Origin: Aquisphaera giovannonii
Lineage (GTDB): Bacteria > Planctomycetota > Planctomycetia > Isosphaerales > Isosphaeraceae
Assembly: GCF_008087625.1 (NCBI RefSeq)
Contig: NZ_CP042997.1
Coordinates: forward strand, 1 to 64,000
DNA: 64,000 nucleotides
Direction: 5' to 3'
Shown: piece by piece, positions 1,138-19,546 of the stretch
Numbering within the stretch: the stretch's first letter is position 1
Layout: every line of letters starts with the position of its first letter
Notes under the pieces: model-generated
Told to the model about the DNA's origin: nothing
The model's input: the letters and a program-made list of their open reading frames with translations, nothing else
Databases searched by the model: none
Translations under genes and position numbers: made by a program

Positions 1138-1176
1138 CGCCGACGCTCGGGGAAGCCCGCCCGCACCCCGGGGCTC

Positions 1177-3561: not shown

Positions 3562-5511
3562 ATGCCCGAACCCTGGTACGTGAAGCGGGCCGGCCGCGTG
3601 CTCGGCCCCTTCGGCGATCCCGAGATCCGGGCGTTGATCGGGCGGGGCACCGTCGACGCCGAGACGCCCGTCCGCCGGGGCACCGACGGCGAGTGGACCC
3701 CCGCGGCCTGCGCCGGGCTTCCCGTCGCCGAGGCCGCGCCGGTTGACGCGCGGCCGGCCCCGACCGCGGACGAGCCGGCGACGTGGCACTTCGCGCGCGA
3801 CGGCGTCCAGTCGGGCCCGCATTCGCTGGCGACGCTGCGCGGGCTCGTCGCGGCCGGGACGCTCGGGCCGGGGGACCTCGCCTGGTCGCCGGGGATGGAG
3901 GAGTGGCGGCCCTGCGGGCTGATCCCCGAGCTCGCCTCGGCCCGCCCGGTCGCGACGGCGACGGCGGCCGCCCTCGACGAGCCGGAGGTCGAGGTCGAGG
4001 TCGTCGGGGCCGAGGACGCCGGCGCAGGTGCCGGCCGGCCCGCCTGGCTCCTGCCGGCCGTCGCGGCCGTGGTCGGGGTCCTGGCCTGCTCCCTGGGACT
4101 CTGGGCGCTGTCGCGATCGACCGGGAAGCCCGGGGCCCGGCCCGCTCCACCGCCCGCGGTCGCCGGGGTCGTCCCGGTCCCCGTGCCGGTCCCGGCCCCG
4201 GCCCCGGCCCCGGGCGTCCACGTCGCGCCGTTCCCGCCCGTGCCCCCGCCGTTCGCCGTGCCCCGGGCCACCCCGCCGGCCCCCGCCCCGGCCGCAGCCT
4301 TGGCCGCGACCCCGCCGGCCGAGATGCTGATGCGCCAGGTCATGACGTCCATCCGAGGGCGCCGGCTCGAGGAGGCCCGCGAGCTGCTCGCCCGCTACCG
4401 CGAGGCGGCGCCGCCGCGGGACGACGGGCTGGCGGACCGGCTGGAGCGGGACATCGAGACGGCGAGCTCCCGGGACGAGGCCGATCGCCTGGCCGCCTCG
4501 CTGGACGACGCCTCGCTCCGCGCCTCGGTCGTCAACGGCGGGCGGGCCCTGGCGGAGCGGCTGGGGACGGCCGAGCTGCGGGCGGCCTACCGCACGACCC
4601 TGAACCAGGCGCTCCGCCGCGAGCTGGACCGCCGGCGGCCCGGACAGGCGGCCGGCGTGTTGCCCCGCGATGGCGCCTGGCGCGGGATGGCGCCGCGGGA
4701 CCCCGGCCAGCCCGGCATGGCGCCGATGGGCCGGCGGGGAGCCTCGGAGCCGCAGGTCGCCTCGCTCTCGTCGCAGGGCCGCACCGGCGCGAGCCTCGAC
4801 GACGTGCTCGCGAAGCCGGCCGAGTTCGTGGGCAAGCCGATCCTCCTGGAAGGCCTGTTCAAGCTCTCCACCCGCGTCGGACCCGTGAAGGATCGCGACC
4901 GGCCGATGGGCCTCTCGATGCCGCTGGCGAGGAACGACGAGCGGACCGTCTGCACCGGCGACCGGCCGATCGCGGGGAGCGACCTCTACCTCCTCGTCGA
5001 CGCGTCGGTCGCGGACCTGCTCCGGCAGGCGGCGGCCAGGCTCGACATGAGGCCGAGCCCCCGCCCGACCTATCGGGCCATCCTCGGGGCCACCGTGCGC
5101 CCGGTCGCGGACGACGACCTCCGGGCCGCCGGCCCCGCCCCCGCGACCGGCCCGCTCGCCATCGTGGTGGACGGGCTCGAGGTCCTCGGCCTCTGCGACT
5201 ACATGAAGGTCGCCGATCACCAGTACGACGAGGCCTTCCGCGTGCTCGCGATCGACCGCACGCACGCCGCGCTGAGGTACGGCGACGGCGCGCTCTGGGT
5301 CGAGCATTTCGGCGGCGAGGAGAAGTTCGTGAAGCCCGTCCGCCAGAAGCTCCAGCAGGTCCAGCGGCGGCTCGCGGCCGAGAAGCGGCAGGCCGTGGCC
5401 GAGGCCGCCTTCGGCCAGGCCTTCGCCGGCGCCATGCGGGCCGCCGACACCTACAACGGCATCCGCGCCATGCAGGACGCCGCCTGGCGGCGCGCCCTGG
5501 GGGCGCGATGA
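3562..5511 (+). CDS. Tandem GYF_2 (DUF4339) membrane protein
   Basis: 649 aa. Two GYF_2/DUF4339 modules sit at about residues 4-50 (WYVKRAGRVLGPF) and 74-125 (WHFARDGVQSGPH). GYF-type domains are known for binding proline-rich peptides. A single membrane helix follows at about 161-184, then a Pro/Ala/Val-rich spacer (190-255) and a large C-terminal region. The latter has a helical stretch (about 255-355) and a folded domain (about 410-590) that I cannot name. Pro-rich linkers are abundant in neighbouring proteins and are plausible intracellular ligands for the GYF modules. The gene starts 4 bp after the preceding one, forming a two-gene operon. A second, separate GYF_2 protein is encoded at 7356-8153. 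Confidence 0.75.
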   Translation: MPEPWYVKRAGRVLGPFGDPEIRALIGRGTVDAETPVRRGTDGEWTPAACAGLPVAEAAPVDARPAPTADEPATWHFARDGVQSGPHSLATLRGLVAAGTLGPGDLAWSPGMEEWRPCGLIPELASARPVATATAAALDEPEVEVEVVGAEDAGAGAGRPAWLLPAVAAVVGVLACSLGLWALSRSTGKPGARPAPPPAVAGVVPVPVPVPAPAPAPGVHVAPFPPVPPPFAVPRATPPAPAPAAALAATPPAEMLMRQVMTSIRGRRLEEARELLARYREAAPPRDDGLADRLERDIETASSRDEADRLAASLDDASLRASVVNGGRALAERLGTAELRAAYRTTLNQALRRELDRRRPGQAAGVLPRDGAWRGMAPRDPGQPGMAPMGRRGASEPQVASLSSQGRTGASLDDVLAKPAEFVGKPILLEGLFKLSTRVGPVKDRDRPMGLSMPLARNDERTVCTGDRPIAGSDLYLLVDASVADLLRQAAARLDMRPSPRPTYRAILGATVRPVADDDLRAAGPAPATGPLAIVVDGLEVLGLCDYMKVADHQYDEAFRVLAIDRTHAALRYGDGALWVEHFGGEEKFVKPVRQKLQQVQRRLAAEKRQAVAEAAFGQAFAGAMRAADTYNGIRAMQDAAWRRALGAR

Positions 5512-5540
5512 TTGCAGGCTACGGATGCAAAGATGCCCCC

Positions 5541-5568
5541 GTGACCACGATCCCACGGTCGTGGTCAC
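5541..5568. repeat. Single REP-like hairpin, family 1
   Basis: Perfect 10-bp arms GTGACCACGA (5541-5550) and TCGTGGTCAC (5559-5568) with an 8-nt loop, lying between the convergent 3' ends of the GYF_2 gene and the sulfatase gene. The arms match the tips of the larger elements at 7144-7328 and 16695-16875. It could also serve as a bidirectional transcription stop, although no T-tract follows. Confidence 0.7.
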
Positions 5569-5597: not shown

Positions 5598-7103
5598 CTA
5601 CTGCATGGAACCGGGGACGGCCCTGGCCTCGGCCAAATCGCGGCGTAGCCGGTCGACGACATCGGGGTGGTCGGCGGCGACGTTGCGGGTTTCGCCCGGG
5701 TCGGCCTCCAGGTCGTAGAGTTGCGGGCCCGGGTCGTTGCCGGTCTCGGTCGCCGTGTTCGCCTGGACCTTCGGGCCCTTCGACGGCGGGATGAACTTCC
5801 ACCGGCCACGGCGGGCGGCGAGGCCGCCGGCCTGCTCGACGAGCGTCTCCCGGCCCTTCGCGTCCTCGCCCAGCAGGGCCCCCAGGTGGTCCCGCGAGTC
5901 AACCGCCGTGGTTATCGGCCCCGCGCGGCCGACGAGCCTGGCGAAGCTCGCGACGAGGTCGATCTGGCTGACGAGCGCCCGGGACGTGCCGGGCCGGACG
6001 CGGCCCGGCCAGCGGACGACGAACGGCACGCGCGTGCCGCCCTCGAACCGGCTGTACTTGCCCCCGCGGAAAGGGCCCGCCGGCCTGTGATCGCCGAGCT
6101 TCTCCACGGCCTGGTCCCGGTACCCGTCGTCCACGACCGGCCCGTTGTCGCTGGTGAACAGGACGATCGTGTCCGCCGCCAGGCCGGACTCGTCGATCGC
6201 CCGCAGGACCTCCCCGACGGTCCAGTCGAGCTCGACGATGGCGTCCCCGCGCGGGCCCATCCCGGACTTGCCCAGGAACCGCGGGGCGGGGAGCCTCGGG
6301 ACGTGGATGTCGTGCGTCGCGAGGTAGAGGAAGAAGGGCCGGCCCCTGCCCCGCCGGATGAACTCCGTCGCCTGGGCCGTGAAGGCCTCGGCCATCGCCT
6401 CGTCCTTCCAGCGGGCCTTGGCGCCCCCCTTCATGTGGCCGATCCGGCCGACGCCGTCCACGATCGCCATGTCGTGGCCGTGGCTCGGGCGGAGGCGGAG
6501 CAACTCCGGGTTGGCCCGGCCGGTCGGCTCGCCGGGGATCGGCGCGTCGTAGCGGACGACGATGGGGTCGGCCGGGTCGCGGCCCACGACCTCATGATCC
6601 TTCACGTAAACACACGGCACGCGGTCGCCGGTGGCGGCCATGATGAAGCACGCGTCGAACCCGACCTCCAGCGGCCCCGGCGCGATCCGGCCGTTCCAGT
6701 CCAGGTCCCCGGAGCCCAGCCCGAGGTGCCACTTGCCGGCCGCCATGGTGCGATACCCCGCGTCCCGGAAGACCGTCGCGAGCGTCGCCCGGCCGGGCTC
6801 GATGATGAGCTTCGCGTCGCCGGGCAGCACGCCCGTGCCCTCCCGCCGCCAGGGGTACTCGCCCGTGAGCAGCCCGTATCGCGAGGGCGTGCACGTCGCC
6901 GAGGTCGCGTGCGCGTCCGTGAACCGCAGCCCCTGGCTCGCCAGCCGGTCGATGTTCGGCGTCAGCCCGGGCCTCGCCCCGTAGCAGCCCGCGTCCCCGT
7001 AGCCGAGGTCGTCCGCGTAGATCAGCACCACGTTGGGGGTGGCGGCGGCCGCGGGGAGTGTCAGGGACGCCAGCGAGAGAGACACGAGTGCTCGAACGAA
7101 CAT
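5598..7103 (-). CDS. Exported type I sulfatase
   Basis: 501-aa arylsulfatase-family hydrolase that removes sulfate esters, probably from polysaccharides. It has a clear signal peptide (residues 1-21, ending PAAAA), the metal-binding start PNVVLIYADDLGYGD (about 23-37), and the formylglycine signature CTPSR with the modified Cys at residue 71, followed by GLLTG. Later motifs include AGKWHLG and a TSDNGP metal-site motif. Activity requires a formylglycine-generating enzyme, which is not in this window. The start was chosen inside a longer open frame because an excellent AAGGAGG lies just upstream of this ATG and the signal peptide begins here. The gene stands alone between two repeat hairpins. 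Sulfatases are strongly expanded in planctomycetes that live on sulfated algal glycans. Confidence 0.93.
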   Translation of the reverse strand: MFVRALVSLSLASLTLPAAAATPNVVLIYADDLGYGDAGCYGARPGLTPNIDRLASQGLRFTDAHATSATCTPSRYGLLTGEYPWRREGTGVLPGDAKLIIEPGRATLATVFRDAGYRTMAAGKWHLGLGSGDLDWNGRIAPGPLEVGFDACFIMAATGDRVPCVYVKDHEVVGRDPADPIVVRYDAPIPGEPTGRANPELLRLRPSHGHDMAIVDGVGRIGHMKGGAKARWKDEAMAEAFTAQATEFIRRGRGRPFFLYLATHDIHVPRLPAPRFLGKSGMGPRGDAIVELDWTVGEVLRAIDESGLAADTIVLFTSDNGPVVDDGYRDQAVEKLGDHRPAGPFRGGKYSRFEGGTRVPFVVRWPGRVRPGTSRALVSQIDLVASFARLVGRAGPITTAVDSRDHLGALLGEDAKGRETLVEQAGGLAARRGRWKFIPPSKGPKVQANTATETGNDPGPQLYDLEADPGETRNVAADHPDVVDRLRRDLAEARAVPGSMQ

Positions 7104-7143
7104 GAGTCGGTCCTCCTTTGCGTGAAGCATCGAGGTCGTGCCG

Positions 7144-7328
7144 GTGACCACGATCGTCAGATCGTGGTCCGGACGGGCGGAGCCTCCAGCCTCGCACGTC
7201 AGTGCGATCCGATGACCGGCGGCGAGGCCGCCCGGGCCGGCGAACCGGCATCGCCGCATGGCGGTCGGGCTCGCGCCCGAGGCTGGGGGCTCCGCCCGTT
7301 TGAACCACCCGCTCACGCGGGTGGTCAC
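7144..7328. repeat. REPIN-like palindromic element, family 1, copy A
   Basis: A 185-bp element whose two ends are inverted copies of each other over about 55 bp. Both ends begin GTGACCAC, form their own small hairpin, and continue into the shared block ACGGGCGGAGCC then CCAGCCTCG; the centre differs. It lies between the 5' end of the sulfatase gene and the 3' end of the GYF_2/DUF4190 gene. A second copy of the same length class is at 16695-16875. The two-hairpins-inverted design is that of REPIN elements. Confidence 0.75.
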
Positions 7329-7355
7329 GGTGGACCTCGCGGTCGGATGGCCTGG

Positions 7356-8153
7356 TCAGGGCACCCGCTGGCGCAGGCCCTCGACGAACCCCTGGAGCAT
7401 GCCGGTGAGGAAGAAGAAGCCGAAGAAGCCCAGGCCGATGATCCCCAGGACGAGCCCGGCGATGGCCATGCCCCTGCCGGCGATCGCGCCGCGGGACCGG
7501 GAGATCTGGTTCAGGGAGACGGCCCCGAAGATGGTCGCCAGCAGGCTGCCGATCCCGCAGAGGACGAGGATCCCGAGCACCAGGCTGGCGATCGCCAGGC
7601 CGCTCGTCCGGGGCGGGTAGCCGTAGCCGACGGGCGCGGGGGCATACGGGCCGGGATGGGCGGGCATCGGGCCGCCCGCCGGCAAGCTGGCGGGGGGCGT
7701 GGAGCCCCATCGGCCCGCGGGGGAGAGCTCGGGGAGCTGGCCGCAGGGGGCCCAGTCGGCCATGCCGGCCTTCCAGGCGAGCGCCTCCGGCGTCACCTCG
7801 CCGGCGGCGGCCATCCGCCGCATCTCCTGCGTCCCGAACGGACCTTCCTGCCCCCGGCCCCGGGACAGGTACCACGACTCCTCCGCCGGCGGGCCCGGGA
7901 TCCCGTACGAGGGCGAGCCCGGGCCGCCCGCGACCGGATAGCCGGCCTCGGCGCCGGCCCTCGGCGCGTCCCCCCGCGTGGGGAACAGGTCGGCGAAGCT
8001 CGCCGCGGAGATCCAGGTCCGGCGGTCCTGGGAGATCTCGTGGAACCTCGCGAGCTGGCCGCGGTCGCGCATCGCCTCCAGCTCGAACCAGCCGAACGGC
8101 CCGAGCACCTTCCCCCGGTTCCGGACGTACCACGGCGTTTCGGATTCCGTCAT
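7356..8153 (-). CDS. GYF_2 x2 plus DUF4190-like membrane protein
   Basis: 265 aa. Two GYF_2/DUF4339 modules (about residues 7-55, WYVRNRGKVLGPF, and 93-145, WYLSRGRGQEGPF) precede a Pro/Gly-rich linker and a C-terminal pair of membrane helices at about 186-212 and 228-252. The helices have the SLVLGIL and GLVLGIIGL pattern of DUF4190. It is the last gene of the minus-strand block with the coiled-coil, GAP1-like and GTPase genes; only 37 bp separate it from the coiled-coil gene. The start is the ATG with GGAG 9 nt upstream; the longer open frame reads into the preceding gene. Likely role: a membrane adaptor that binds proline-rich segments of its partners, for example the Pro-rich linker of the GAP1-like protein. 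That partner assignment is inference. Confidence 0.75.
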   Translation of the reverse strand: MTESETPWYVRNRGKVLGPFGWFELEAMRDRGQLARFHEISQDRRTWISAASFADLFPTRGDAPRAGAEAGYPVAGGPGSPSYGIPGPPAEESWYLSRGRGQEGPFGTQEMRRMAAAGEVTPEALAWKAGMADWAPCGQLPELSPAGRWGSTPPASLPAGGPMPAHPGPYAPAPVGYGYPPRTSGLAIASLVLGILVLCGIGSLLATIFGAVSLNQISRSRGAIAGRGMAIAGLVLGIIGLGFFGFFFLTGMLQGFVEGLRQRVP

Positions 8154-8190
8154 GGATGAGCAATCTCCGGCCCGTCGTCCTTGGGTTGCG

Positions 8191-11133
8191 TCACGGCCGC
8201 TCGGCCGCGGCCGGCCTGAAGTAGACCGGCCGGCCCTCGACCATCGCCGAGGCGTCCTCGGCCCGGAGCGACGCCACGCCTCTCGCGACGGTCCCGACCC
8301 GCTTCCAGGCCGCCGCCCCGCCCTCCTCACGGGCGGCGACGAGCAGCTCGCCGTCGCCCGCGTCCGCCGCCGAGATCGCCGGCTCGACCCGCCAGCCCTG
8401 CGGGCCGGGGGACAGCCAGCCGACGGGATGGGGCCGGCGGGCGAGGCGACCGTCCAGGCCCGCGGCGATCTCCCGGGCGTGCTTGCGGATCTCCGCGAAG
8501 TCGGGCAGGGACGCCACGGCCTCGGCGGCGGCCGGGCGCAGGCGGCGGGCGTCGGCGTTGTCGGGATCCATCCAGGGCACGGTCACGTCCACGCCCGCCT
8601 GGTCGATCCTCGCGAGCGCGTCCCGGCAGGCCTCGCGGAGCGGCACGCTGCCGTCGCCGGCGAGCTCCAGGACCCTCCGCAGGAGGTTCAGTTGCAGAAG
8701 CGGGTCGATCTCCGGCTCCTGGCGGATGGCCGCGGCGAGGTCCATCATCGGCCCGTCCCACTCGCCCCCCCGGGCGAGCTGCCCGAGTGCGGCCTTGTAG
8801 CGCGCGGCGATCCGCGACTGCGGCGCCGCCTCGGAGAGGGCGATGTGCTCGCGGACGATCGCCGCCATGGCCGGCTTCTCGGTGTTGTAGCTCTTGTAGT
8901 AGTGGACGACGCTGCTGTCGTCCGGCGGCCGCTGCGCGAGGTAATACTTGCGGGCCGGCTCGTCGCGGTTCGGCGGCCGGACCTTGACCATCCAGACGGA
9001 GCCGACCAGGGGGTCGGAGAGGAGCTGCTGGAGGCGGCCGGCCAGCGGCTCCGCGCGGCGGGCGACGGCCTGGAGCCGGTCGCGGCAGGCGGCGATCTCC
9101 GCGGCGTCGGGGGACTGGGGATACTTCGCGATCAGGCGATTGCAGAGGTCCAGCCGCTCCTGGTCGCGGCGGGGCCCGCCCCCGGCCGGCTCCTTCGCCC
9201 AGGCGGCCAGGAGCCGGTTCCAGGCGGCGACCGCCTCCCACGCCTGCGCCTCGCGGTCGAGCTGGGGGAGGGCCCTGGCCCTCGGCGACCCCGGTTCGGC
9301 CTCCGCGGCCTTCTTCAGCAGCTCCAGGTAGCGGGACATGGCCTGCGCCTCGTCGGCCCCGGCGGACCGCAGCGTCGCGGCCATGTCCCGCTCGACGGCC
9401 GCGACGCGGCGGCCGGACTCGAGCTGCTTGCCCAGGTTCTCGACGTCCAGCCGGGCGGCCTGCGCCAGCGTCTTGACCTCGCCGTCGGCCAGCTCCGTCG
9501 CGGCCGCGAGCGCGTCGGCCTCCCCGCGGAGCTGCTCGAACTCGTCCTCGGCCGCGCGGGCCTTCGCGGGCTCGGCCTTCGCCCCGGCGAGCGACGCCCG
9601 CAGGGCGGCGACGCGGTCGCCCAGGTCGCGGATCCTCGGGCGGGCCTCGCCCCCCTGCCGCTTGCGCTCCGCCTCCAGCGCGGCGGCCCGCCGCTCCGCC
9701 AGCTTCGCCACGGCCTCCTTCTCCGTCGGCTGCACGGCGAGCTTCCTCGCCTCGTCCATCGGCTTCGACGCCCCGCCCAGCGGGGACGCCTCCGCGGCGC
9801 GGTAGGCCTGTTCGAAGGCGAGCTGCCGCTGCGCCTCCCTGCCCTCGGCGCCCTTGAACATCTCCCTCGCCTCGAGCATCGGCGCCTGCTGGAGGATCGC
9901 GGGGTCGTCCTGCTCGAGCTTCTTGAGGAGGTCGCCGGCGCGGGCGAGCTCGCCGAGCTCCACGGCGTCGGAGACCGCCTGCGCGGCCCGCTCCGCCTCC
10001 TGGGCGCGCGCGGTGCTGCGGACCGAGGCGGCGATCAGGCCGAGCACCAGGAGCACCGCCGCCGCCGCCGATCCCCCGACGATCATCCGCAGGCGGTTGG
10101 CCCTCGCCCGCTCGGCGGCCAGCCGCTGGACGTACCTCGCCTGGAGCGATTCGGGCATCCCTCGCTCGTGGCGGAGCAGCGTGTTGCCCAGCCGCTCGAG
10201 GTCCGCCGGGGCGATCGCGCCGGGCTCGTCGAGGGTTTGGCGGAGCTCCCGGATCGCGTCCTCGTGACGGCGGTCGTCCTCGTCCGCGCGGTCGCGGTCC
10301 TCGAGCCAGTCGAGGATCGGCCGGGCCCGGCGCATGGCGGGGTCGTCCTCCGCCAGGCCCAGGACGCCGACGAGGGACAGCCAGGGCTGCCGGGCGCGGC
10401 GGGCCCGCTCGGGGTCGCGGGCGGCGAAGGCGTCGGCCAGCTCCCCCTCCAGGTCGGCGAGCGCCGCGCGGTTCTGCTGGCCGCGGAGCTGGGCGTCGGC
10501 CTTGCGGAGCCCCTGCACCAGGGCCTTCGGCGGCGGCTCCACCCACGGGGACTCCTCGACCTCGGCGAGGATCTTGCCCAGGTCCTTGACCTCGCGCCGG
10601 CGGGCGGCCTCGGCGCCGTCCTCCTGGAGCTCGCGGAAGCGGACCTTCTCGAAGACGCGCAGGTCCTCGGGCCAGATCGGGTTCGTCGGATCCTGGGCCG
10701 CGAGCTTCCGCATGACGGCGATCCTCGCCCGCACCGGCGCCCGGGAGAGGGCCAGCCGGCGATGCGTCCGCAGCAGGTCCTGGAGCGGCTCCTCCAGCGC
10801 GTAGGCCTCGTTGAGGAATTGAGCGGCGCTCTGGGACACGCGGGGGGCGGCCGGCAGCCCGTAGATGCCGACCAGCTCGTCCCAGGCGTCGCGCTCCGGG
10901 AAGTCGAGCGCGGCGACCAGGTCGAGCAGCCGCGGGTCCGCCTCGGCGAGCTGGATCGCCTCCGACCGCAGCCCCTGCTGGAGCAGCCTCTGGCACTGCC
11001 CCAGCCGCCGGGCCGCCTCCGCGCAGGCCTCCGCGTACGAGCCCGCCAGCGCCTCCAGCGCGGGGCTCCGCGTCTGGTCCGTCGCCTGCACGAACGCCCG
11101 GATGTCGTCCACCGCCTGGTGATAGCCGGCCAT
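8191..11133 (-). CDS. Long coiled-coil transmembrane protein of the GTPase block
   Basis: 980 aa. The N-terminal 345 residues are helical and charged. One membrane helix sits at about 350-371, followed by roughly 300 residues of Glu/Ala/Arg-rich coiled coil (about 372-680) and then a mixed C-terminal region ending near RPVYFRPAAAERP. No catalytic motif was seen. It begins 45 bp after the stop of the GAP1-like gene and ends 37 bp before the GYF_2 gene, so it is probably in one transcript with them. Size and layout suggest a membrane-spanning scaffold that carries a signal between a cytoplasmic GTPase complex and the other side of the membrane. I do not recognise a named family. The reading frame is certain over its length; the start is supported only weakly by an AGGCAGG upstream. 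Confidence 0.72.
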   Translation of the reverse strand: MAGYHQAVDDIRAFVQATDQTRSPALEALAGSYAEACAEAARRLGQCQRLLQQGLRSEAIQLAEADPRLLDLVAALDFPERDAWDELVGIYGLPAAPRVSQSAAQFLNEAYALEEPLQDLLRTHRRLALSRAPVRARIAVMRKLAAQDPTNPIWPEDLRVFEKVRFRELQEDGAEAARRREVKDLGKILAEVEESPWVEPPPKALVQGLRKADAQLRGQQNRAALADLEGELADAFAARDPERARRARQPWLSLVGVLGLAEDDPAMRRARPILDWLEDRDRADEDDRRHEDAIRELRQTLDEPGAIAPADLERLGNTLLRHERGMPESLQARYVQRLAAERARANRLRMIVGGSAAAAVLLVLGLIAASVRSTARAQEAERAAQAVSDAVELGELARAGDLLKKLEQDDPAILQQAPMLEAREMFKGAEGREAQRQLAFEQAYRAAEASPLGGASKPMDEARKLAVQPTEKEAVAKLAERRAAALEAERKRQGGEARPRIRDLGDRVAALRASLAGAKAEPAKARAAEDEFEQLRGEADALAAATELADGEVKTLAQAARLDVENLGKQLESGRRVAAVERDMAATLRSAGADEAQAMSRYLELLKKAAEAEPGSPRARALPQLDREAQAWEAVAAWNRLLAAWAKEPAGGGPRRDQERLDLCNRLIAKYPQSPDAAEIAACRDRLQAVARRAEPLAGRLQQLLSDPLVGSVWMVKVRPPNRDEPARKYYLAQRPPDDSSVVHYYKSYNTEKPAMAAIVREHIALSEAAPQSRIAARYKAALGQLARGGEWDGPMMDLAAAIRQEPEIDPLLQLNLLRRVLELAGDGSVPLREACRDALARIDQAGVDVTVPWMDPDNADARRLRPAAAEAVASLPDFAEIRKHAREIAAGLDGRLARRPHPVGWLSPGPQGWRVEPAISAADAGDGELLVAAREEGGAAAWKRVGTVARGVASLRAEDASAMVEGRPVYFRPAAAERP

Positions 11134-11177
11134 GTTGCGCTGCCTGCCTGCTTGCGTTCCTGCGATCGGTCCGAGCG

Positions 11178-13625
11178 TCAGGGCCTCTTCGCGTCCTCGG
11201 CATACTTGCCGAACTGCGCTAGCTCGACAAAATGGTCGTCGTCCAGTTTGAGGACGACCGTGAAGCTGAGGTCCGCCCGCGTGGCATTCATGATCCGCTC
11301 CAACTCGGCCCGGTACGACTCGAGCCGCTTCCGGGTCTCCTCGAGCTCGCGGTCCTCCTTCTCGACCTTGCGAAGCTGCTCGTCGATGTCCTTGACGTCA
11401 CCCTTCCTCGCGGATGCCCTCTCCTTCTCCAACGCGCCGAGTCGCTCGGCGTTCCCATTCCGTCGCCCGGGGATGGCGTCCAACGTCGCCTTATCATCAT
11501 GGATCGCCCGGGCGTTGAATGCGAGGTTGATCATCAGATTCGGCCCGTCGAGCTGGAGGCGTACCGCCGCGTATCTCGACTCGCCGATGTCCGCCTGGAC
11601 TTCACGGCATGGCTCGTGGCCAGCCCCCCCGACGAGGAGCGTGCTCGCCGCCGCATCGGGCGATTTCACGTCGATCCGCCAGCGATCCAGGTACAGGGGC
11701 CATTGGCCGTCGGCGGGTGGCCTGTCGGCGGCCTCGTGCTCGGGCCTCACGAGGATCTCGCCCCGCCTGGCATCGCGGACGGGCCTGGAGGCTTCGCCCT
11801 CCTTCATCCAGGGGAACGACCTTCCGCGAGGGCTGTAGTCGTTCGGGCGGACGACCCGGCCCGGCTCGACGAGCGGGACCGGCCCGGTCCCCTCCGTCAG
11901 CGGCGATGCCCGCAGCAGCACATAGGCCCTGTCGCCGGCCGTCTCGATCTCGAGGAGGCTCTTGCGCAGGACGCCCGCCAGGTCGGGGCGCGAGGCCGCC
12001 AGCCCGGACCAGCGGAACTCGACTTGATCCGCGCGCTTCGTGAAGAGCCCGAGGCTGTTCTCGCCCAGCGTGCTCGTCGTGTTCTGGCAGATCTTGAGGC
12101 CCTCGTCCGTCTCCTGGGCGGCGATCGGCGAGCCCTCCCGGAGGGGCGGGAGGAGCAGGCGGATTCGCCCGATCTCCGACCCGAGCCGGCCCGCGGTGGC
12201 GATCGTGACGGGCTTCTCCGCGCCCGCCCTCCCGTCCAGGCCGGACGTCAGGCGGGGCAGCTCGGCGAAGAGCACTGGGCGCGACCGCGGTTCGCCGAGC
12301 GTGTCGGCCGGAGGCTTCGGCGCCTCGGGAGGCGGGTTCACTTCCGCCCCCTTCGGCTCCTGCGGCTTCGGCTCGCCGGCGACCTTCGTGGGCTCCTGCG
12401 GCTTTGCGGGCTCGGCGGGCTTCGGTTCGGCCTTCGCGGCGGACCCCTGCGGTGCCGAGCTCTCGGCGGCCTTCGGGGCCCGGTCCGCGGCGGCCTGCTT
12501 CTTCTCGGCGTTCTCCCTCTCCGCGGCGAGGATCGCGTCGGCCGCCTTGCTCCGCAGGCCGAGCGCGCCGAGGAGGCGATCAGGGCCGACGAGCCACAGC
12601 CCGCCGCCGCCGGCGAGGATCAGGCAGGCCGCGGCGATCAGGGCGACGAGGCCGCGGCCGCGGCCCGGCGGCTCCTCGGGCTCGAGGCGCCCCGCCCTGC
12701 CGGCCCGGGCGTGCGGGGCGTCGGGCGGGAGGGGGATCATCTCGATCGGCGGGCCGTCCCCTCCGCCGGGTCGCCTCGGGCCGGCCGGCGAGGGCCTCGG
12801 CCGGGCCGGGGCGGGGGCGCCGGCCCGCCGCTCGCCGGTCCTCGCCAGGTGGACGAGGTCGCCGCCCTCCGCCTTCGGCAGCCGGGCGGTCAGGTCGATC
12901 CGCAGGCAGTTGGGCAGCCTCGCCGACTGGTCGGCCTCCGGCGAGCCCGCCAGCACGCCCCGCCAGGCGCAGGACAGCCCCTGGGGGAGCCCCGTGAAAT
13001 ACGTGTTGAAATCCACGTCCCAGCGTCGCGACGGCGGCAGCAGGGCTATGGCCTCGGCGAAGAGCGGCAGCAGGTCCATGCCCGGCCGGAAGACGAGCGC
13101 GGCGACGCGCGACGGGTCGGCGAGGAACGCCTCCGCCAGGACGCCCGCCCAGCCGGGGTCGCCCGCGATCGCCCCCCACGCGCGGGCGATGCCCGGCGGC
13201 CGGTCGCCGCGCGGCGGGACGCGGCCGGCCTCGATCGTCGCCGGCTCGCCGTGCCAGGACGCCTCCAGGAATCCCGGCTGCATCAGCAGCCAGGCCGGGC
13301 CGCCCTCGGGACGCTCCTCGGGCCCGAGGACGACGTGGTGCGCGTGCTTGTTCGGCCGCGACGAGTAGTCCAGCCCCGCCGCCGAGACCCGGGAGAGGAC
13401 GCTGGAGGAGCGGCCGCCCAGGGCCAGCCGGTGATGCGAGAAGGCCACCGGGTTGAGCGCCGCGTCCGGGTCGTGCGGCGGGACCGCCGGGCGATATCCG
13501 CTGAGCCCTTCCAGCCGCTCGCGGAGCGAGCCCGGCATTCCCGCGGTGCAGGCCACGGTGCAGAACCCCCGGCTGCCGGGGAGCAGCCCGCGGGGCACCG
13601 ACGTGTAATGCAGCTCGTGGCTCAT
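11178..13625 (-). CDS. GAP1-like GTPase-associated protein with membrane segment
   Basis: 815 aa. The N-terminal about 260 residues resemble the GTPase-associated protein 1 (GAP1) N-terminal domain. They open with a HELHYTSVPRGL strand, have SGYRP near 42-46, FSHHRLALG near 62-70, and SSRPNKHAHHVVL near 88-100, the pattern I associate with that family. GAP1 proteins are reported as partners of TRAFAC-type GTPases in predicted biological-conflict systems (Aravind group, from memory). A Pro-rich linker (about 268-322), a membrane helix (about 326-346), a Lys/Glu/Pro-rich linker (about 370-440) and a large C-terminal region follow; the last 120 residues are coiled coil. The start has GGAGGG 7 nt upstream. 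The upstream GTPase gene on the same strand supports the assignment. The GAP1 call is by eye. Confidence 0.68.
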   Translation of the reverse strand: MSHELHYTSVPRGLLPGSRGFCTVACTAGMPGSLRERLEGLSGYRPAVPPHDPDAALNPVAFSHHRLALGGRSSSVLSRVSAAGLDYSSRPNKHAHHVVLGPEERPEGGPAWLLMQPGFLEASWHGEPATIEAGRVPPRGDRPPGIARAWGAIAGDPGWAGVLAEAFLADPSRVAALVFRPGMDLLPLFAEAIALLPPSRRWDVDFNTYFTGLPQGLSCAWRGVLAGSPEADQSARLPNCLRIDLTARLPKAEGGDLVHLARTGERRAGAPAPARPRPSPAGPRRPGGGDGPPIEMIPLPPDAPHARAGRAGRLEPEEPPGRGRGLVALIAAACLILAGGGGLWLVGPDRLLGALGLRSKAADAILAAERENAEKKQAAADRAPKAAESSAPQGSAAKAEPKPAEPAKPQEPTKVAGEPKPQEPKGAEVNPPPEAPKPPADTLGEPRSRPVLFAELPRLTSGLDGRAGAEKPVTIATAGRLGSEIGRIRLLLPPLREGSPIAAQETDEGLKICQNTTSTLGENSLGLFTKRADQVEFRWSGLAASRPDLAGVLRKSLLEIETAGDRAYVLLRASPLTEGTGPVPLVEPGRVVRPNDYSPRGRSFPWMKEGEASRPVRDARRGEILVRPEHEAADRPPADGQWPLYLDRWRIDVKSPDAAASTLLVGGAGHEPCREVQADIGESRYAAVRLQLDGPNLMINLAFNARAIHDDKATLDAIPGRRNGNAERLGALEKERASARKGDVKDIDEQLRKVEKEDRELEETRKRLESYRAELERIMNATRADLSFTVVLKLDDDHFVELAQFGKYAEDAKRP

Positions 13626-13802
13626 GGGGCGTTCCCTCCGCCGCGGCCGGCGACGAGCCGCCCGGGAATTGCTGGATAGGCCTGGCGCACGCGGCGAGAT
13701 CGGCCCCGGTGCTCGTCCTCGCGGAGCCTGACATGATCCGCAGGCCGGGCCGCGTTTTCCGGTCTCCTCCCCCTACCGCGGGAGTCGGAGGTCATCTCCA
13801 TC

Positions 13803-13966
13803 CCCTCTCCCGCTCGGCGGGAGAGGGCTAGGGTGAGGGTCTTCAGGCCCCGGCCTTGCGGTCCGAGCTGACCTTCGGGGGCACCTTGCTCGTGGGCCTC
13901 CGGCGATTCGTCACCCGAGCCTCGCTCCGCCCTCACCCCACCCCTCTCCCGCCGAGCGGGAGAGGG
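13803..13966. repeat. Inverted pair of 25-bp CCCTCTCCC hairpins
   Basis: Two hairpins, CCCTCTCCCGCTCGGC... at 13803-13827 and its inverted partner at 13942-13966, each able to fold on itself, separated by 114 bp. Both continue into a GGGTGAGGG-type flank, so the whole unit is a larger inverted repeat. It fills most of the 477-bp gap between the GTPase and GAP1-like genes. Repeats of this kind are widespread in high-GC bacteria. The gap also contains a spurious small frame that is just translated repeat. No other gene is visible between 13626 and 14102. Confidence 0.75.
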
Positions 13967-14102
13967 AGATAGTTCTTCACCTCTGCTTACGCTCATGGAA
14001 TTCTCAACGGGCGGGTCGGGGATTCACTTGCGGGTAAAGCACGACTTGCCAGGCTGAGTTGAAGGGGATCTCGGCTCCGCCGCGGGCCCTCCCCTCGGCC
14101 CG

Positions 14103-15419
14103 TCATCCCTGCGTCCTCGCCGTCCCCTTCCGCTTCAGCCGCGGCACCAGGCCCGGGAGGACCCGGCAGAGGATGTAGAGCAAGGGCACGGTCACCCAGT
14201 GGGGCCGGATGTCGGCCGGGCGGATGGTCAGCAGGCCCGTCTCGCGGTCCGCGTCCGTCCGGCTGCCCAGCGCGCTGACGGCGATGTACGTGACGTTCGT
14301 CGCGAAGGCCTCGGCCGCGGCCACGGTCTCCGGCGAGTACTGCCGGAGGATCTCCCGGAGCCTGGCCGAGAGGGCCTCGATCTCGTCCACGTCCACCCCC
14401 ATCGCGCCGGCGGCCTTGCGGTAGGGATCCTCGGCCTCGGCGCCCAGCAGGTGGGACCATTCGTCGAACTTGGAGAGGATGACGACGGTCGGCCGGTCGT
14501 AGCGGGCGTTGTGCGCGAGGCCGCCGTGCTTGCGGATCCGCACGGCGGCCTCGGTGAGCAGCGTCTCCTGCCGGCTGAGGCGGTTGTCCCGGCTGGCGAC
14601 CGCGCCGAGGTCCCGGTTCCGGCAGGCGGCCCGGAAGCGCCGGTCCTGGGTCGGGTCGAACAGGAAGAGCAGCCCCCGGGCGTGCGCCAGGTGCCGCGTC
14701 ACGGGGCTGCTCGCCCGGTCCTGCCCCGGCTGGAAATGCTCGCCCGCGTTGTCATACAGGCAGAGGATCCGCGACAGCCCCGCGGCCGCGGCCGGGTCCT
14801 TACCCGCGACCGGGTGGCCGGCCTGGGGCTGCAAGGCGAAGAGGAACGGCCGGGGATAGCTGACGACCTGCTGCCCGTAGCCGACGGTGTCATACAGCTC
14901 GCCCTGGAGCTCGGTCTTGCGGATCAGGCTGCCGAGCGGGACGGGGTCGTCCTCGCGGGGGTTGAGGAACAGCGACTCCTCGCAGTCGTTGAGCGCCAGG
15001 TTGGCCGCCGGGTCGGCGTCGGTGAAGGCGATGCCGAAGCCCTGCGGCAGGAGCCGGCGGAGCTGCCAGGTCATCGCCGTGAGGAAGAACGACTTGCCGC
15101 TGGCCGGCCCGCCCAGGATCGAGAGGAACAGCGGCTCCGCCTCGACCATCGCCCGGGGGATGCCCAGGTGGCACCTCGGGCACGCCAGCGAGTGGCACGT
15201 CATCCCCTTCGCGTCGATCGCGTCGCCTTCCACCGTGAACCGGCTGGGCAGGAACCTCTGCTGCTGCTCCGGCCCGAGCAGCGGGTCGCCCAGCAGGTCC
15301 ACGTGCTCCGAGACCCAGAGCACCTGCTCCGGCGCGAACGCCTCCCAGCAGTGCGGGCACGTCACGCGGGGCAGCAGGGCGACCGTCGCGGCCTCGTTCC
15401 TGGATGAAAGCGTGGACAT
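14103..15419 (-). CDS. Zinc-ribbon TRAFAC-like GTPase
   Basis: 438 aa. The N-terminus has cysteine pairs CPHC (21-24) and, after an insert, CPRC (80-83), probably a zinc ribbon. A P-loop GTPase core follows: G1 GGPASGKS (103-110), G3 as DNAGEH (223-228) and G4 as SKFD (316-319, in place of NKxD). The DxAGE form of G3 and the long insertions are features of the GTPases that accompany GAP1 proteins in predicted conflict systems (family knowledge; by-eye match). The C-terminus is hydrophobic then basic and may touch the membrane. It is the first gene of the minus-strand block with the GAP1-like, coiled-coil and GYF_2 genes. The start chosen has a GACGGGG upstream; a longer form from 15473 is possible but would remove the leader. 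Confidence 0.75.
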
Positions 15420-15666: not shown

Positions 15667-15758
15667 CATGCGGCGAGCGACATGAGGCAGCGAAGGTGCC
15701 CGCGCGGATCGCGAAGCCGATCGCCCTCGAGAGCGTTCATCGAGTATTCCGAGCCCCC

Positions 15759-16646
15759 ATGCCCGAGCTCCCGGACATCGCCGTCTACATCGAGGCCCTC
15801 GAGCCGCGGATCGTCGGCAAGAGGCTGGAGGGAGCCCGCGTGCGGAGCCCCTTCCTGCTGCGGACGTTCGACCCGCCGCTATCGGCCGCGGCGGGGAAGG
15901 TGGTGCGCGAGGTCCGGCGCGTGGGGAAGCGGATCGCGATGGGGCTGGAGGAAGACCTCTGGCTGGTGCTCCACCTGATGGTCGCCGGGCGGCTGCACTG
16001 GAAGGCTCCGGGGGCGAAGGCCGGCGGCAAGGTCCACCTCGCGGCGTTCGACTTCGAGACCGGCACGCTGCTCCTCACCGAGGCCGGGACGAAGCGGCGG
16101 GCGTCGCTGTACCTGCTGCGCGGCGAGCCCGCGCTGAAGGACCATGACCCCGGCGGGCTGGAGGTGCTCTCGGCGCGGTTCGAGGACTTCCTGGCCGTGC
16201 TCCGCAGGGAGAACCACACGCTCAAGCGGTCGCTCACCGACCCGAAGCTGTTCAGCGGGATCGGCAACGCGTACTCCGACGAGATCCTCCACCGCGCGAA
16301 GCTATCGCCGTTGACGCTCTCGCGGAAGCTCCCCGAGGCCGATGCCGTGCGCCTGTTCGAGGCCGTCCGCGCGGTGATCGTCGAGTGGACGGATCGGCTC
16401 CGCGACGACCTCGCGGGCGGCTTCCCGGAGAAGGTCACCGCGTTCCGCCCGGAGATGGCCGTCCACGGGCGATATGGCGAGCCCTGCCCCGCCTGCGCGG
16501 CCCCCGTCCAGCGGATCCGCTACGCCGACAACGAGACCAATTACTGCCCCCGCTGCCAGACCGGCGGGCGGATCCTCGCCGACCGGTCGCTGTCGCGGCT
16601 CCTCAAGGACGACTGGCCGCGGAGCCTGGACGAGCTGGAGGTGTGA
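15759..16646 (+). CDS. Formamidopyrimidine-DNA glycosylase family protein
   Basis: 295 aa. Base-excision repair glycosylase/lyase of the Fpg/Nei family, which removes oxidised bases. The N-terminus [10 protein letters not shown] provides the catalytic Pro2 and Glu3. The helix-two-turn-helix region includes [13 protein letters not shown] (about 167-179), matching the conserved GIGN-Y element. The C-terminal zinc finger is CPAC (about 246-249) and CPRC (about 267-270). The LPDIAVY version, rather than the LPEVET of canonical MutM, marks a side branch, so substrate range may differ (8-oxoguanine or oxidised pyrimidines). The start is the ATG giving the invariant MPEL; the frame stays open upstream but that part is translated repeat. 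Single gene, with the family-1 repeat element downstream. Confidence 0.9.
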
Positions 16647-16694
16647 GGCGCCCCGCGCTCCTCGAGAGGACGCCGACCGCCTCGCCTCGCACGG

Positions 16695-16875
16695 GTGACC
16701 GCGATCGTCAGATCGCGGTCCGGACGGGGCGCAGACCTCCAGACTCGCACGTCAGTGCGATCCGGGCGCGAAGGCCCGCGCTCGTCGATTCGTGGGCCCT
16801 GCCCCGGCTGGTCCGGCTCACGCCGGAGGCTGGAGGCTTCGCCCGTTTGAACCACCCGCTCACGCGGGTGGTCAC
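16695..16875. repeat. REPIN-like palindromic element, family 1, copy B
   Basis: 181-bp element equivalent to 7144-7328. It starts GTGACCGCGATCGTCAGATC and ends CACGCGGGTGGTCAC, with the same inverted ACGGG...GAGGC blocks and the same CGCACGTCAGTGCGATCC step on the left side, but a different centre. It sits between the convergent ends of the fpg-like and ThuA genes (gap 16647-16915), where it could also stop transcription from both sides. Confidence 0.75.
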
Positions 16876-16915
16876 GTCTGCATGACGCTCGCGTGAACCC
16901 TTGATAAGATTCCAC

Positions 16916-17880: not shown

Positions 17881-19188
17881 TTACACGTTCCTCGACGTCC
17901 CCGGCACGGCGCAGACGGGGTACACGCCCTTGGCGTCGGGCCTCGCCGGGGGCTCCATGGTCCAGGTGCAGGCCTCGGGGCGGGGCGCGTGGAAGAACTC
18001 CGAGCGGCTGACGTCGTCCCAGGTCACCTCCTGGCCGCTGTAGCAGGAGAGCTGGCCCATGATCGCGACCAGCGTGCTCCTAGCCGCGTAGTCTCCGCAA
18101 TTGAGCGGCCTGCCGGCGCGGATGGACTTGATGAACTCCGCGTGCTCGACCACGTACGGGCTGACGTTCGGGCCATTGTAGCGCCAGGGGGCCTTCCCCG
18201 TGATGACGCCGGATTTCAGGTGCGCCTCGCCCTTCGTGCCCAGGACGATGCTCGAGTCCTCGTTGTAGCAGTTATTGGTCGTCCGGCAGAAGGCGTAGAG
18301 CCTCAGGCCGTCGGCGTAGTGGTAGACCACCGAGTGGTGGTCGAAGACGTCGCCGAGCAGGTCCTGAGGGCCCGACCGGCCGCCCAGGCCGTGGCAGCGC
18401 GCCGGGGGCGTCTCCCTCAGGACCCACGTCGCGCGGTCGAGGTTGTGGACCAGGGACTGCACCACGTCGTCGCCGCAGAGCCAGGAGAAGCGGTACTGGT
18501 TGGCGTACTGCGCCTCCAGCTCGCGCGTGCCCCGCGGGCGGGCGACCTGCCCGTACGGGCCGCGGATGAAATTCTCCTCGATGGAGACGATCTCGCCGAT
18601 CTGGCCGTCGTGGACGCGTTTCACCGTCTCGCGGATCATCGGCGAGAAGCGGCTCATCAAGCCGGAGAGGATCCCCAGGTTCTTCTCCTTCGCCAGCGCC
18701 GTGGCCCGGCGGACGACCTGGATGCCCAGCGGGTCGATCGCGTGCGGCTTCTCCACGAAGGCGTGCCTGCCGGCCTCGATGCCGGCCTTCAGGTACATGG
18801 CGTGGAACTTGGCGGCGCACGCAATGATCACGTAGTCCACGCTCTCGATGACCCGCTTGTAGGCATCCAGCCCGACGAAGCAGTGGGCGTCATCGACCCG
18901 GACCTGCTCCGGCTTCTCGGCCCGGAGCAGCGACCGACTGGACTCGACGCGGTCGCGGAAGAGGTCGCCCATGGCGACGAGCCGGACGCCCGGATCCGCG
19001 GCCATGGCGTCGCCCGCGGCGCCGGTGCCCCGGCCGCCGCAGCCGACGATGCCGATCCGGATGATGTCGCTCCCGGCGGCGTGCACCCCGCCGGCCGCCA
19101 TGACCCCCGCGATCCCCGCGGCGGCGGTCGTTGCCTCCTTCGCGAACTCTCGACGCGTGCTCTGCCCGCTCGGCTTCGAAGGGCTCAT
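17881..19188 (-). CDS. Gfo/Idh/MocA oxidoreductase with Tat-type signal
   Basis: 435 aa. NAD(P)-dependent sugar oxidoreductase family. The N-terminus carries a twin-arginine-like signal (STRREFAKEA then an Ala-rich hydrophobic stretch, about residues 10-36). The Rossmann domain begins IRIGIVGCGGRG (about 42-53) and contains the family EKPHA motif (about 146-150). The long C-terminal alpha/beta domain is typical. It is divergent from a second family member at 19547, with 358 bp between them, and upstream of the ThuA gene. The start is the ATG with GCAGGAG 8 nt upstream; the larger open frame lacks a ribosome site. Likely exported and acting on a carbohydrate-derived substrate; the substrate cannot be read from the sequence. 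Confidence 0.9.
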   Translation of the reverse strand: MSPSKPSGQSTRREFAKEATTAAAGIAGVMAAGGVHAAGSDIIRIGIVGCGGRGTGAAGDAMAADPGVRLVAMGDLFRDRVESSRSLLRAEKPEQVRVDDAHCFVGLDAYKRVIESVDYVIIACAAKFHAMYLKAGIEAGRHAFVEKPHAIDPLGIQVVRRATALAKEKNLGILSGLMSRFSPMIRETVKRVHDGQIGEIVSIEENFIRGPYGQVARPRGTRELEAQYANQYRFSWLCGDDVVQSLVHNLDRATWVLRETPPARCHGLGGRSGPQDLLGDVFDHHSVVYHYADGLRLYAFCRTTNNCYNEDSSIVLGTKGEAHLKSGVITGKAPWRYNGPNVSPYVVEHAEFIKSIRAGRPLNCGDYAARSTLVAIMGQLSCYSGQEVTWDDVSRSEFFHAPRPEACTWTMEPPARPDAKGVYPVCAVPGTSRNV

Positions 19189-19546
19189 CGTCGTGCTCCT
19201 GCTGTCGGGATGGACCGGGGCGAGGCGGGATCGAAGGCGTGCGAGGCCGAAGGGCCTCGACGGCCGCCGGCGGCGGGGCGAGGGGTCGCGGGGGGCGACG
19301 AGACGGAAGGCGGGGGCCGTCCTCCGCGACGGCTTGCTCATCCTTGGTCTAACCCGCGCCGGGGGCGCTGTCAATCGCCTGGCGGGCATCGGGCGACGCG
19401 AGGAACGCGCGCCTCGCTCTCACCTATGGCATTCCTTGCCGCCGGGCGCGATACTCCAGCATCCCTACCCGCCACGACGGCGACCCGCCGTCGAGTCGAG
19501 CGGCCCCCCCCGCCGCGTCCTCGTGCGATCGCGAAAGGAGCCCACC
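19189..19546. other. Divergent intergenic region, 358 bp
   Basis: Must hold the control region of both flanking oxidoreductase genes. I see only weak promoter-like pieces (GATACT at 19450-19455) and no clear operator, repeat or small gene. Confidence 0.4.

Follow-up and report, generated by a model that had tools for sequence, protein, structure and literature searches.

A conserved DO-GTPase/GAP1-N2 gene block with an exchanged GYF-protein module in Aquisphaera giovannonii

Introduction

DO-GTPases, which Kaur et al. assign to the TRAFAC GTPases, are described in the main text of the same work as constituents of DO-GTPase/GAP1-N2 systems, among them a planctomycete version in which a pair of GYF domains is fused to a region rich in transmembrane (TM) segments (Kaur et al., 2020; PMC7159879). 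Within the open-access literature searched, GAP1-N2 is named in this publication alone. Here, we analyze a block of four genes from the planctomycete Aquisphaera giovannonii that belongs to this circle. It is located in the first 64 kb of contig 1 (NZ_CP042997.1) of a 10.5-Mb genome, a stretch referred to as the window throughout, and encodes a DO-GTPase2-type GTPase, a GAP1-N2/GAP1-M protein (GAP1), a single-pass helical protein (CC) and a tandem GYF_2 protein (Table 1).

With the GAP1-N2 systems treated in the main text of Kaur et al. (2020) the block shares a zinc-ribbon DO-GTPase with the Walker B glutamate, the combination of GAP1-N2 and GAP1-M and a TM segment in GAP1. With the planctomycete branch, in which the GYF pair goes along with a TM-rich region or a trypsin, it shares two GYF_2 domains and a DUF4190 region with two TM segments next to GAP1 and the GTPase. 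It differs in lacking a fibronectin type III (FNIII) component and a GAP1-C match and in possessing a constant single-pass helical protein, CC, instead. FNIII domains were detected neither in the four proteins (E ≤ 1) nor in 51 GAP1 (E ≤ 0.001) or 50 CC proteins (E ≤ 0.01), while Ig-like families occur in one GAP1 member each among the 51 scanned. Since there is no FNIII component, the window is filed with the GYF branch only. GAP1-C (PF20052) was not found in the window protein (E ≤ 1), in the 51 GAP1 proteins (E ≤ 0.001) or in the own genome, the control genomes being silent as well; a diverged form is possible. CC is not mentioned in the main-text passages of Kaur et al. on these systems and may be listed in the supplement of that paper; GYF-borne T2SSE, PrsW, TM2 and RDD domains are not named in its section 29 (PMC7159879). 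The idea that CC is the equivalent of GASH from the GAP1-N1 system was discarded for want of a profile match: GASH is neither among the families of the 50 CC proteins (E ≤ 0.01) nor present in the own genome, and matches in one of 199 sampled genomes of the phylum, a diverged relative being possible.

The original prediction, which was made from the sequence of the window, had considered the layout undescribed. This does not hold, as GYF-coupled planctomycete GAP1-N2 systems had already been reported in the main text of Kaur et al. (2020). What we add is a constant component, CC, in the place for which FNIII proteins were reported, the swapping of the GYF-protein C-terminus, a longin/DENN-like model for GAP1 and the absence of the block in a congener. 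We propose that the block specifies an accessory, membrane-anchored GTPase switch with envelope sensing and variable output, which represents, among the DO-GTPase/GAP1-N2 systems, the planctomycete branch that is coupled to GYF domains. We give this reading about an even chance. Judged from sequence, the role of the switch is probably related to conflict or stress. A prediction made in one sentence in 2020 thereby becomes a delimited system in which GTPase, GAP1 and CC are constant and a single part is exchanged, so that each role can be tested.

Gene content of the block

As had been stated in the original prediction, the block consists of four long open reading frames (ORFs) on the same strand, and profile searches bear out the identities assigned to GAP1, the GTPase and the GYF protein. 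GAP1 exceeds the Pfam cut-offs for GAP1-N2 (105.2 bits) and GAP1-M (55.4 bits), the GYF protein those for GYF_2 (80.9 bits) and DUF4190 (52.7 bits), and the GTPase is barely above the cut-off of 27 for DO-GTPase2 (29.4 bits). CC does not match any Pfam family at E ≤ 1. All four zinc-ribbon cysteines of the GTPase, its P-loop residues G108-K109-S110 and the stretch D223-N-A-G-E227, which includes the Walker B glutamate of the family, are invariant in 11/11 aligned rows, and GAP1-N2 and GAP1-M were both found in all 51 GAP1 proteins scanned, that of the window included. Hydropathy analysis agrees with the earlier statement that three of the four products are membrane proteins: one membrane helix each is predicted for GAP1 (325-343) and CC (350-368), two for the GYF protein and none for the GTPase.

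The genes are separated by 477 (GTPase-GAP1), 44 (GAP1-CC) and 37 bases (CC-GYF). The 477-base gap harbors a 37-nt inverted repeat (95% complementary), and co-transcription of all four genes is therefore uncertain. For the GYF gene a start that matches its relatives was adopted, giving 265 aa; the ORF list contains a longer frame from 8330.

The structure model of CC (m9fd93312ec10; mean predicted local distance difference test (pLDDT) score 90.1, predicted TM-score 0.53) consists of an all-helical N-domain (1-345), the TM segment near 350, long helices (377-706), an alpha/beta part and a beta-rich C-terminal part. Its single Foldseek match at E ≤ 0.001 (Ski2-3-8 complex, E 9e-4, TM-score 0.07) and its best VIA alignment (a spectrin-repeat entry, Z 10.8 at a root-mean-square deviation (rmsd) of 33.8) were both rejected as generic helices. 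Profile searches of solved structures with full-length GAP1, CC and GTPase yielded matches that were judged to be of low complexity, coiled-coil or sub-threshold, the best one for the GTPase being a BMS1 homolog (E 0.046). NCBIfam and PADLOC scans of the four proteins did not provide a usable family; the two weak PADLOC matches both fall into GAP1 (PD-T4-6, E 0.0031, residues 306-446; LmuB, E 0.019, residues 729-795).

Table 1. Coordinates of the block, neighboring genes and repeat elements in the window
Feature	Coordinates	Strand	Basis
DO-GTPase2-type GTPase, 438 aa, split zinc ribbon (C21/C24, C80/C83), P-loop	14103-15419	minus	PF19993
GAP1-N2 + GAP1-M protein, 815 aa, Pro-rich linker, one TM segment, variable C-terminal region	11178-13625	minus	PF20013, PF20014
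CC, single-pass helical protein, 980 aa	8191-11133	minus	structure model, hydropathy
Tandem GYF_2 adaptor with DUF4190 two-TM region, 265 aa	7356-8153	minus	PF14237 (two stretches), PF13828
Trypsin-like protease, 503 aa, possible extra component	1252-2763	plus	Trypsin_2, 93.3 bits
Zinc-ribbon-like (by eye) membrane protein, 240 aa	2835-3557	plus	PPPLP at 100, three hydrophobic segments
Second tandem GYF_2 protein, 649 aa, possible extra component	3562-5511	plus	GYF_2, 90.5 bits; one TM segment at 163
Sulfatase	5601-7328		
dnaA region	21-1140		
fpg region	15750-16644		
Inverted repeat, GTPase-GAP1 gap	13803-13839 / 13930-13966		
Palindromic element, about 190 bp	7136-7329; 16687-16876; partial 5538-5566		

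Conservation and distribution of the block

The four genes are a conserved unit. Besides that of the window, 44 GAP1-N2 places were recorded across the own genome and 58 related ones. Of these, 40 were fetched, 39 from relatives and one from the own genome (G023, G004:C23, G020:C107 and G010 were left out). A GAP1 resembling that of the window is present in 11 of the 40, and nine of these 11 have all four genes in the same order; the exceptions are L034, which runs into a contig end, and L038, where a GTPase was not recognized. When named genomes were searched with the GTPase alignment, 541 loci were confirmed, and the best 80 of them were retained. Among these, 45 offer at least 8.5 kb downstream of the GTPase gene, and with thresholds of at least 120 bits for GAP1, 100 for CC and 70 for GYF the GTPase is followed by GAP1 and CC in 43/45 and all four genes are in order in 36/45. 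The nine loci without a GYF gene comprise the orphan GTPases L076 and L078, one locus with a Phycisphaerae title (L142) and six whose titles read Lentisphaeria, Victivallales, Oligosphaeraceae or Kiritimatiellota. The order is kept in loci with Isosphaeraceae, Pirellulales and other planctomycete titles and partly in Lentisphaerota-type loci. Conservation of the order across Planctomycetes, proposed as a check along with the original prediction, is supported by these counts, and the findings that had been named as fatal to the original prediction, missing GAP1 and TRAFAC profile matches or scattered homologues, did not materialize.

For the comparisons described below, reference lists took matches of at least 100 bits, whereby five GYF matches, L098 and L126 among them, were excluded. 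The CC set comprises 50 of 53 proteins (without L115, L117 and L142), the GYF set 39 of 41 (without L115 and L117) and the GAP1 set 51 of 76, the latter picked by hand with exclusion of truncated, second-piece and near-duplicate rows.

The block is accessory. The dnaA and fpg regions of the window are collinear with those of the congener G002, but the interval between them amounts to 14.6 kb in the window and to about 2.0 kb, with a TPR gene, in G002. The block was therefore gained or lost at this site, in a single step or in several. At a threshold of at least 400 bits, CC is present in 15 of 59 genomes (own included), in 13 of the 37 within the family and in neither congener, several of the genomes being fragmentary.

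An N-terminal FHA domain is present on the GTPases of L127 and L139, the two that were scanned, and similar N-termini were seen by eye in L130, L144, L145, L148 and L151. These FHA-bearing DO-GTPases, from loci titled Kiritimatiellota, Victivallales and relatives, suggest a phospho-dependent input.

Some further loci deserve mention. A contig titled Ectothiorhodospiraceae (L088) carries a GTPase and a GAP1 of the window subtype. By eye, a macro-domain-like ORF adjoins each of two orphan GTPases of the same subtype (L074:9033-9431 and L077:7989-8492). In G019, a compact locus (L153:8379-11936) contains, by eye, pieces resembling GYF/GTPase together with a CC N-domain of 377 aa and a GYF protein; its GTPase frame is apparently broken and its contig lacks a GAP1-N2 match. 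Near 9,089,000 of the own genome a second, different DO-GTPase, which matches both DO-GTPase1 and DO-GTPase2, adjoins a short GAP1-N2 protein (L033:8719-10348), and a GTPase similar to it by eye lies beside a GAP1-N2 place in the congener locus L054.

Exchange of the GYF-protein C-terminus and composition of the linkers

GYF_2 was detected in 39/39 GYF proteins scanned, and 34 of them have at least one predicted membrane helix. The C-terminus attached to this constant part is swapped between loci. At E ≤ 0.001 the partners are DUF4190 (six proteins, some below the Pfam cut-off), T2SSE (four), trypsin (three), TM2 and PLDc_N (two each) and RDD and PrsW (one each). DUF4190 is found in the window, L032 and L036, trypsin in L073, TM2 in L041, PrsW in L037 and RDD in L097, such that the module differs even between near relatives (DUF4190 in the window and L036 versus trypsin in L073). 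This exchange matches the pattern of constant core and variable effector argued for in the main text of Kaur et al. (2020; PMC7159879). In L136 the block ends with two tandem GYF proteins (L136:15193-16945), one with and one without a TM2 domain.

The motif PPxLP occurs in the linker preceding the TM segment of GAP1 in 12 of 43 proteins, compared to 0.9 expected from shuffled sequences (maximum 5 in 2000 shuffles). This pattern supports, without proving, docking of GYF domains on Pro-rich linkers. PPPLP is also carried by the trypsin-like and the zinc-ribbon-like protein encoded next to the block.

Region-wise divergence and a short subtype

The two membrane-spanning core proteins are conserved unevenly along their length. 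Mean pairwise identity of GAP1 (12 rows) is 0.53 for GAP1-N2, 0.50 for GAP1-M and 0.16 after the TM segment, that of CC (11 rows) is 0.37 for the N-domain and 0.21-0.25 beyond it. The position of the membrane segment is well preserved: 49/50 CC proteins have a single one at residue 343-359, and 43/51 GAP1 proteins have one at 325-368, two of the 43 with a second hydrophobic segment. Seven of the eight GAP1 proteins without it stem from non-planctomycete loci of the Planctomycetes-Verrucomicrobia-Chlamydiae (PVC) group. The N-terminal parts of GAP1 and CC are presumably cytosolic.

Seven loci (L098, L108, L109, L123, L126, L129 and L131) represent a short subtype, in which CC is reduced to the N-domain and a tail anchor (377-378 aa, 7/7), GAP1 ends in a tail anchor (7/7) and the GYF part is fused to a PilB/GspE-like ATPase with an intact GPTGSGKT motif in 6/6 complete proteins. 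T2SSE was assigned by Pfam in four members and by eye in the others, L098 and L126 included.

Predicted fold of the GAP1 protein

In the model of GAP1 (m76aebdaee4d9), 26 of the first 27 ten-residue blocks have an average pLDDT above 90. Its first 100 residues are arranged as two strands, a helix followed by a short one, and three strands, and the order strand-strand-helix-three strands is that of longin domains. When residues 1-286 were compared with VIA-align, each of rows 1-20 fell to the longin, DENN or TagF group: seven entries are so titled, three are folliculin complexes and ten (PA0076, SEA, GATOR1/KICSTOR, CPLANE and Fuzzy-Inturned chains) we take to be chains of these types. The first row is the Rab35-GEF domain of DENND1A with Rab35 (Z 7.6, rmsd 5.2, 234 residues aligned; GEF, guanine nucleotide exchange factor); the best others are a Lokiarchaeota longin domain (Z 7.5, rmsd 3.9, 118 aligned), DENND1B with Rab35 (Z 7.3, rmsd 4.5, 225 aligned), a DENND10 entry (Z 6.8, rmsd 5.4, 241 aligned) and TagF (Z 6.7, rmsd 5.1, 217 aligned). 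Both lobes are covered, with over 200 residues aligned, only in the three DENN rows and in TagF 9t0n, and the first unrelated row, a PAS domain, ranks 21st (Z 5.4). A longin part of GAP1 is likely, and a DENN-like organization of GAP1-N2 plus GAP1-M as a whole possible; as far as the model goes, the likeness to longin/DENN regulators of GTPases is suggestive.

For TagF, a type VI secretion repressor, a likeness to the Sec22b longin domain has been described (PMC3325213), and longin domains have been traced to prokaryotic GTPase-activating proteins (GAPs) of MglA-like GTPases, Roadblock being longin-related (PMC3521125). TagF also occupies the first two Foldseek ranks for the GAP1 model, and a D-x3-R turn is in register in the two proteins, the same turns being paired in the best local hhalign alignment of GAP1 with a TagF set (18 of 20 loci, without L176 and L178). 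TagF differs in that a TagF_N match is missing from the own genome and in the outcome of the profile comparison given below. The eukaryotic DENN/longin regulators (DENND1, FLCN-FNIP, C9orf72-SMCR8, GATOR1) share the predicted fold of GAP1 1-286 and a GTPase partner at a membrane; in contrast to them GAP1 has no match at the sequence level and a DO-GTPase rather than a Rab or Rag as its partner. MglA/MglB is likewise a prokaryotic GTPase with a longin-related regulator (PMC3521125) but belongs to another GTPase family and gene set. GAP1 and GTPase profiles did not match each other. The main text of Kaur et al. (PMC7159879) does not mention longin, roadblock, DENN or TagF, and a search of the open-access literature for bacterial or prokaryotic longin or DENN phrases did not retrieve a paper.

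A more far-reaching version of our proposal, which we put forward tentatively and rate below an even chance, would make GAP1-N2/M a longin-DENN module of bacteria. Anchored in the membrane, it would act on a TRAFAC GTPase as a genuine GEF or GAP and receive its input from far-side sensors, within an accessory, immune-like switch with interchangeable outputs. If so, the fold by which eukaryotes regulate Rab and Rag GTPases would be present in PVC bacteria, the biochemical activity of GAP1 would be directly testable and the origin of eukaryotic DENN proteins would gain a candidate from PVC bacteria.

Proposed function and alternatives

In the membrane-anchored switch that we propose, GAP1 and CC would each span the membrane once, with conserved N-terminal halves in the cytosol and fast-diverging far sides that sense an event in the envelope. 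The longin/DENN-like module of GAP1 would determine which nucleotide state the DO-GTPase adopts, the helical N-domain of CC would keep the complex at the membrane, and the tandem GYF protein would dock on the membrane-proximal Pro-rich linkers. The membrane or protease module borne by the GYF protein and exchanged between loci would deliver the output, possibly against invaders. The fusion of GYF and FHA domains to the DO-GTPase in L127 speaks for this proposal. The view of the block as a conflict or signaling system, already expressed in the original prediction, is in keeping with its accessory and variable character, that is module exchange, patchy presence and absence in the congener.

A number of results weigh against this proposal. 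GTPase, GAP1 and CC are present without a separate GYF gene in 7/45 loci, and GAP1 is not found downstream in 5/72 loci with at least 1 kb available (L074, L076, L077, L078 and L086); the GTPases of the first four are 65-68% identical to that of the window (best segment), L077 offers only 1.6 kb downstream, and L086 has only a weak GAP1 match, upstream of the GTPase. The seven short-type loci keep GTPase, GAP1 and the CC N-domain without far-side domains, and envelope sensing is therefore not general. About 20 of the 39 GYF-protein C-termini are without Pfam assignment, so that the term effector is a guess for about half of these proteins. The early suggestion that GYF modules hold Pro-rich linkers gains from the enrichment of PPxLP, a motif which was chosen from ten patterns after looking and is found in 1/28 other Pro-rich linkers of the same loci (Fisher P 0.011 versus GAP1 linkers). 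It loses from the classical GYF ligand, PPG plus a hydrophobic or basic residue, which is not enriched in GAP1 linkers (4/43, 1.9 expected), nor is PPPL (3/43, 0.9 expected; 127/2000 shuffles as high), and from the lack of PPxLP in the window GAP1, which has IPLPPDAP instead, and in the three short-type GAP1 linkers tested. As regards the fold, all VIA Z scores of GAP1 are below 8, a range for which the tool itself cautions that sharing a common arrangement can be enough, Foldseek gave no match at E ≤ 0.001 (best E 0.013, TagF), the GAP1-N2/M profile did not match any of 177,635 Protein Data Bank sequences at E ≤ 10, and hhalign of GAP1 against the 18 TagF proteins was not significant (P 0.45).

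Among the alternatives, the strongest is a GTPase-controlled organizer of an envelope machine such as a pilus, a secretion apparatus or a surface complex, which would follow an MglA-like polarity logic without a role in defense and in which the GYF adaptor would bring in a component of the machine, a PilB/GspE-like ATPase in one subtype. We consider it unlikely. The short-type loci with tail-anchored CC N-domain and GAP1 and a GYF part fused to a T2SSE-type ATPase fit this explanation, as does a prepilin-like ORF in L109 (GFTLIELLVVI, by eye; 18426-19667) 2.7 kb beyond the ATPase gene. Prepilin-like ORFs are very numerous in planctomycetes. The GYF domain also brings about a match to the gliding protein GltJ, far below the NCBIfam cut-off (37.6 of 450 bits), and GltJ offers an analogy to MglA-dependent systems; a paper on GltJ together with a GYF domain was not found in the open-access literature searched. 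In addition, Roadblock proteins, which are related to longin domains, act as GAPs on MglA-like GTPases (PMC3521125). On the other hand, apart from the L109 ORF, inspection by eye, no profile scan having been made, did not reveal a pilus or secretion gene around L098, L109, L126 and L131, and the patchy distribution as well as the exchange with proteases and other membrane modules argue against a machine organizer.

Somewhat less probable still appears an envelope-stress response resembling the phage shock protein (PSP) system, in which the far sides would sense damage to membrane or wall, rather than an invader, and membrane modules or proteases would carry out repair. Membrane helices in three of the four products agree with such a function, whereas module exchange among close relatives and absence from both congeners would be unusual for a core stress response. 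That the genes are unrelated neighbors without functional connection is very improbable indeed: GTPases of the same subtype without a neighboring GAP1 do exist and the inverted repeat leaves co-transcription uncertain, but the order counts (43/45 and 36/45), its maintenance across planctomycete and partly Lentisphaerota-type loci and the fusion of GYF to the GTPase in L127 contradict it.

Genes and repeats next to the block

The same 14.6-kb stretch between dnaA and fpg additionally encodes a trypsin-like protease, a zinc-ribbon-like protein, a second GYF protein and a sulfatase (Table 1). The protease has a zinc-ribbon-like N-terminus (by eye), PPPLP at position 64, a TM segment at 87 and H, D and S motifs at 198, 238 and 310; relatives of it adjoin the block in L032 and L035 (= L087). 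The zinc-ribbon-like protein has neither a Pfam match nor a relative beside other blocks. The C-terminal domain of the second GYF protein is also without Pfam match; for this part, a relative adjoins the L032 block, and a shorter match lies next to L037/L079. In L032, which is among the closest blocks (GTPase 69%), the relatives of trypsin and second GYF protein are found in the same place without the sulfatase, and the two proteins may therefore belong to the system; the frame of the L032 trypsin relative appears to be disrupted before the domain is complete.

The sulfatase gene is situated between the second GYF gene and the block, beside copies of a palindromic element, and its closest relative in G002 (84%) resides on another contig. 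The palindromic element, about 190 bp in length, flanks the block and is present at at least 41 places genome-wide (40 of 392 first-look candidates scored). It resembles a miniature inverted-repeat transposable element (MITE) or a large repetitive extragenic palindromic (REP) element.

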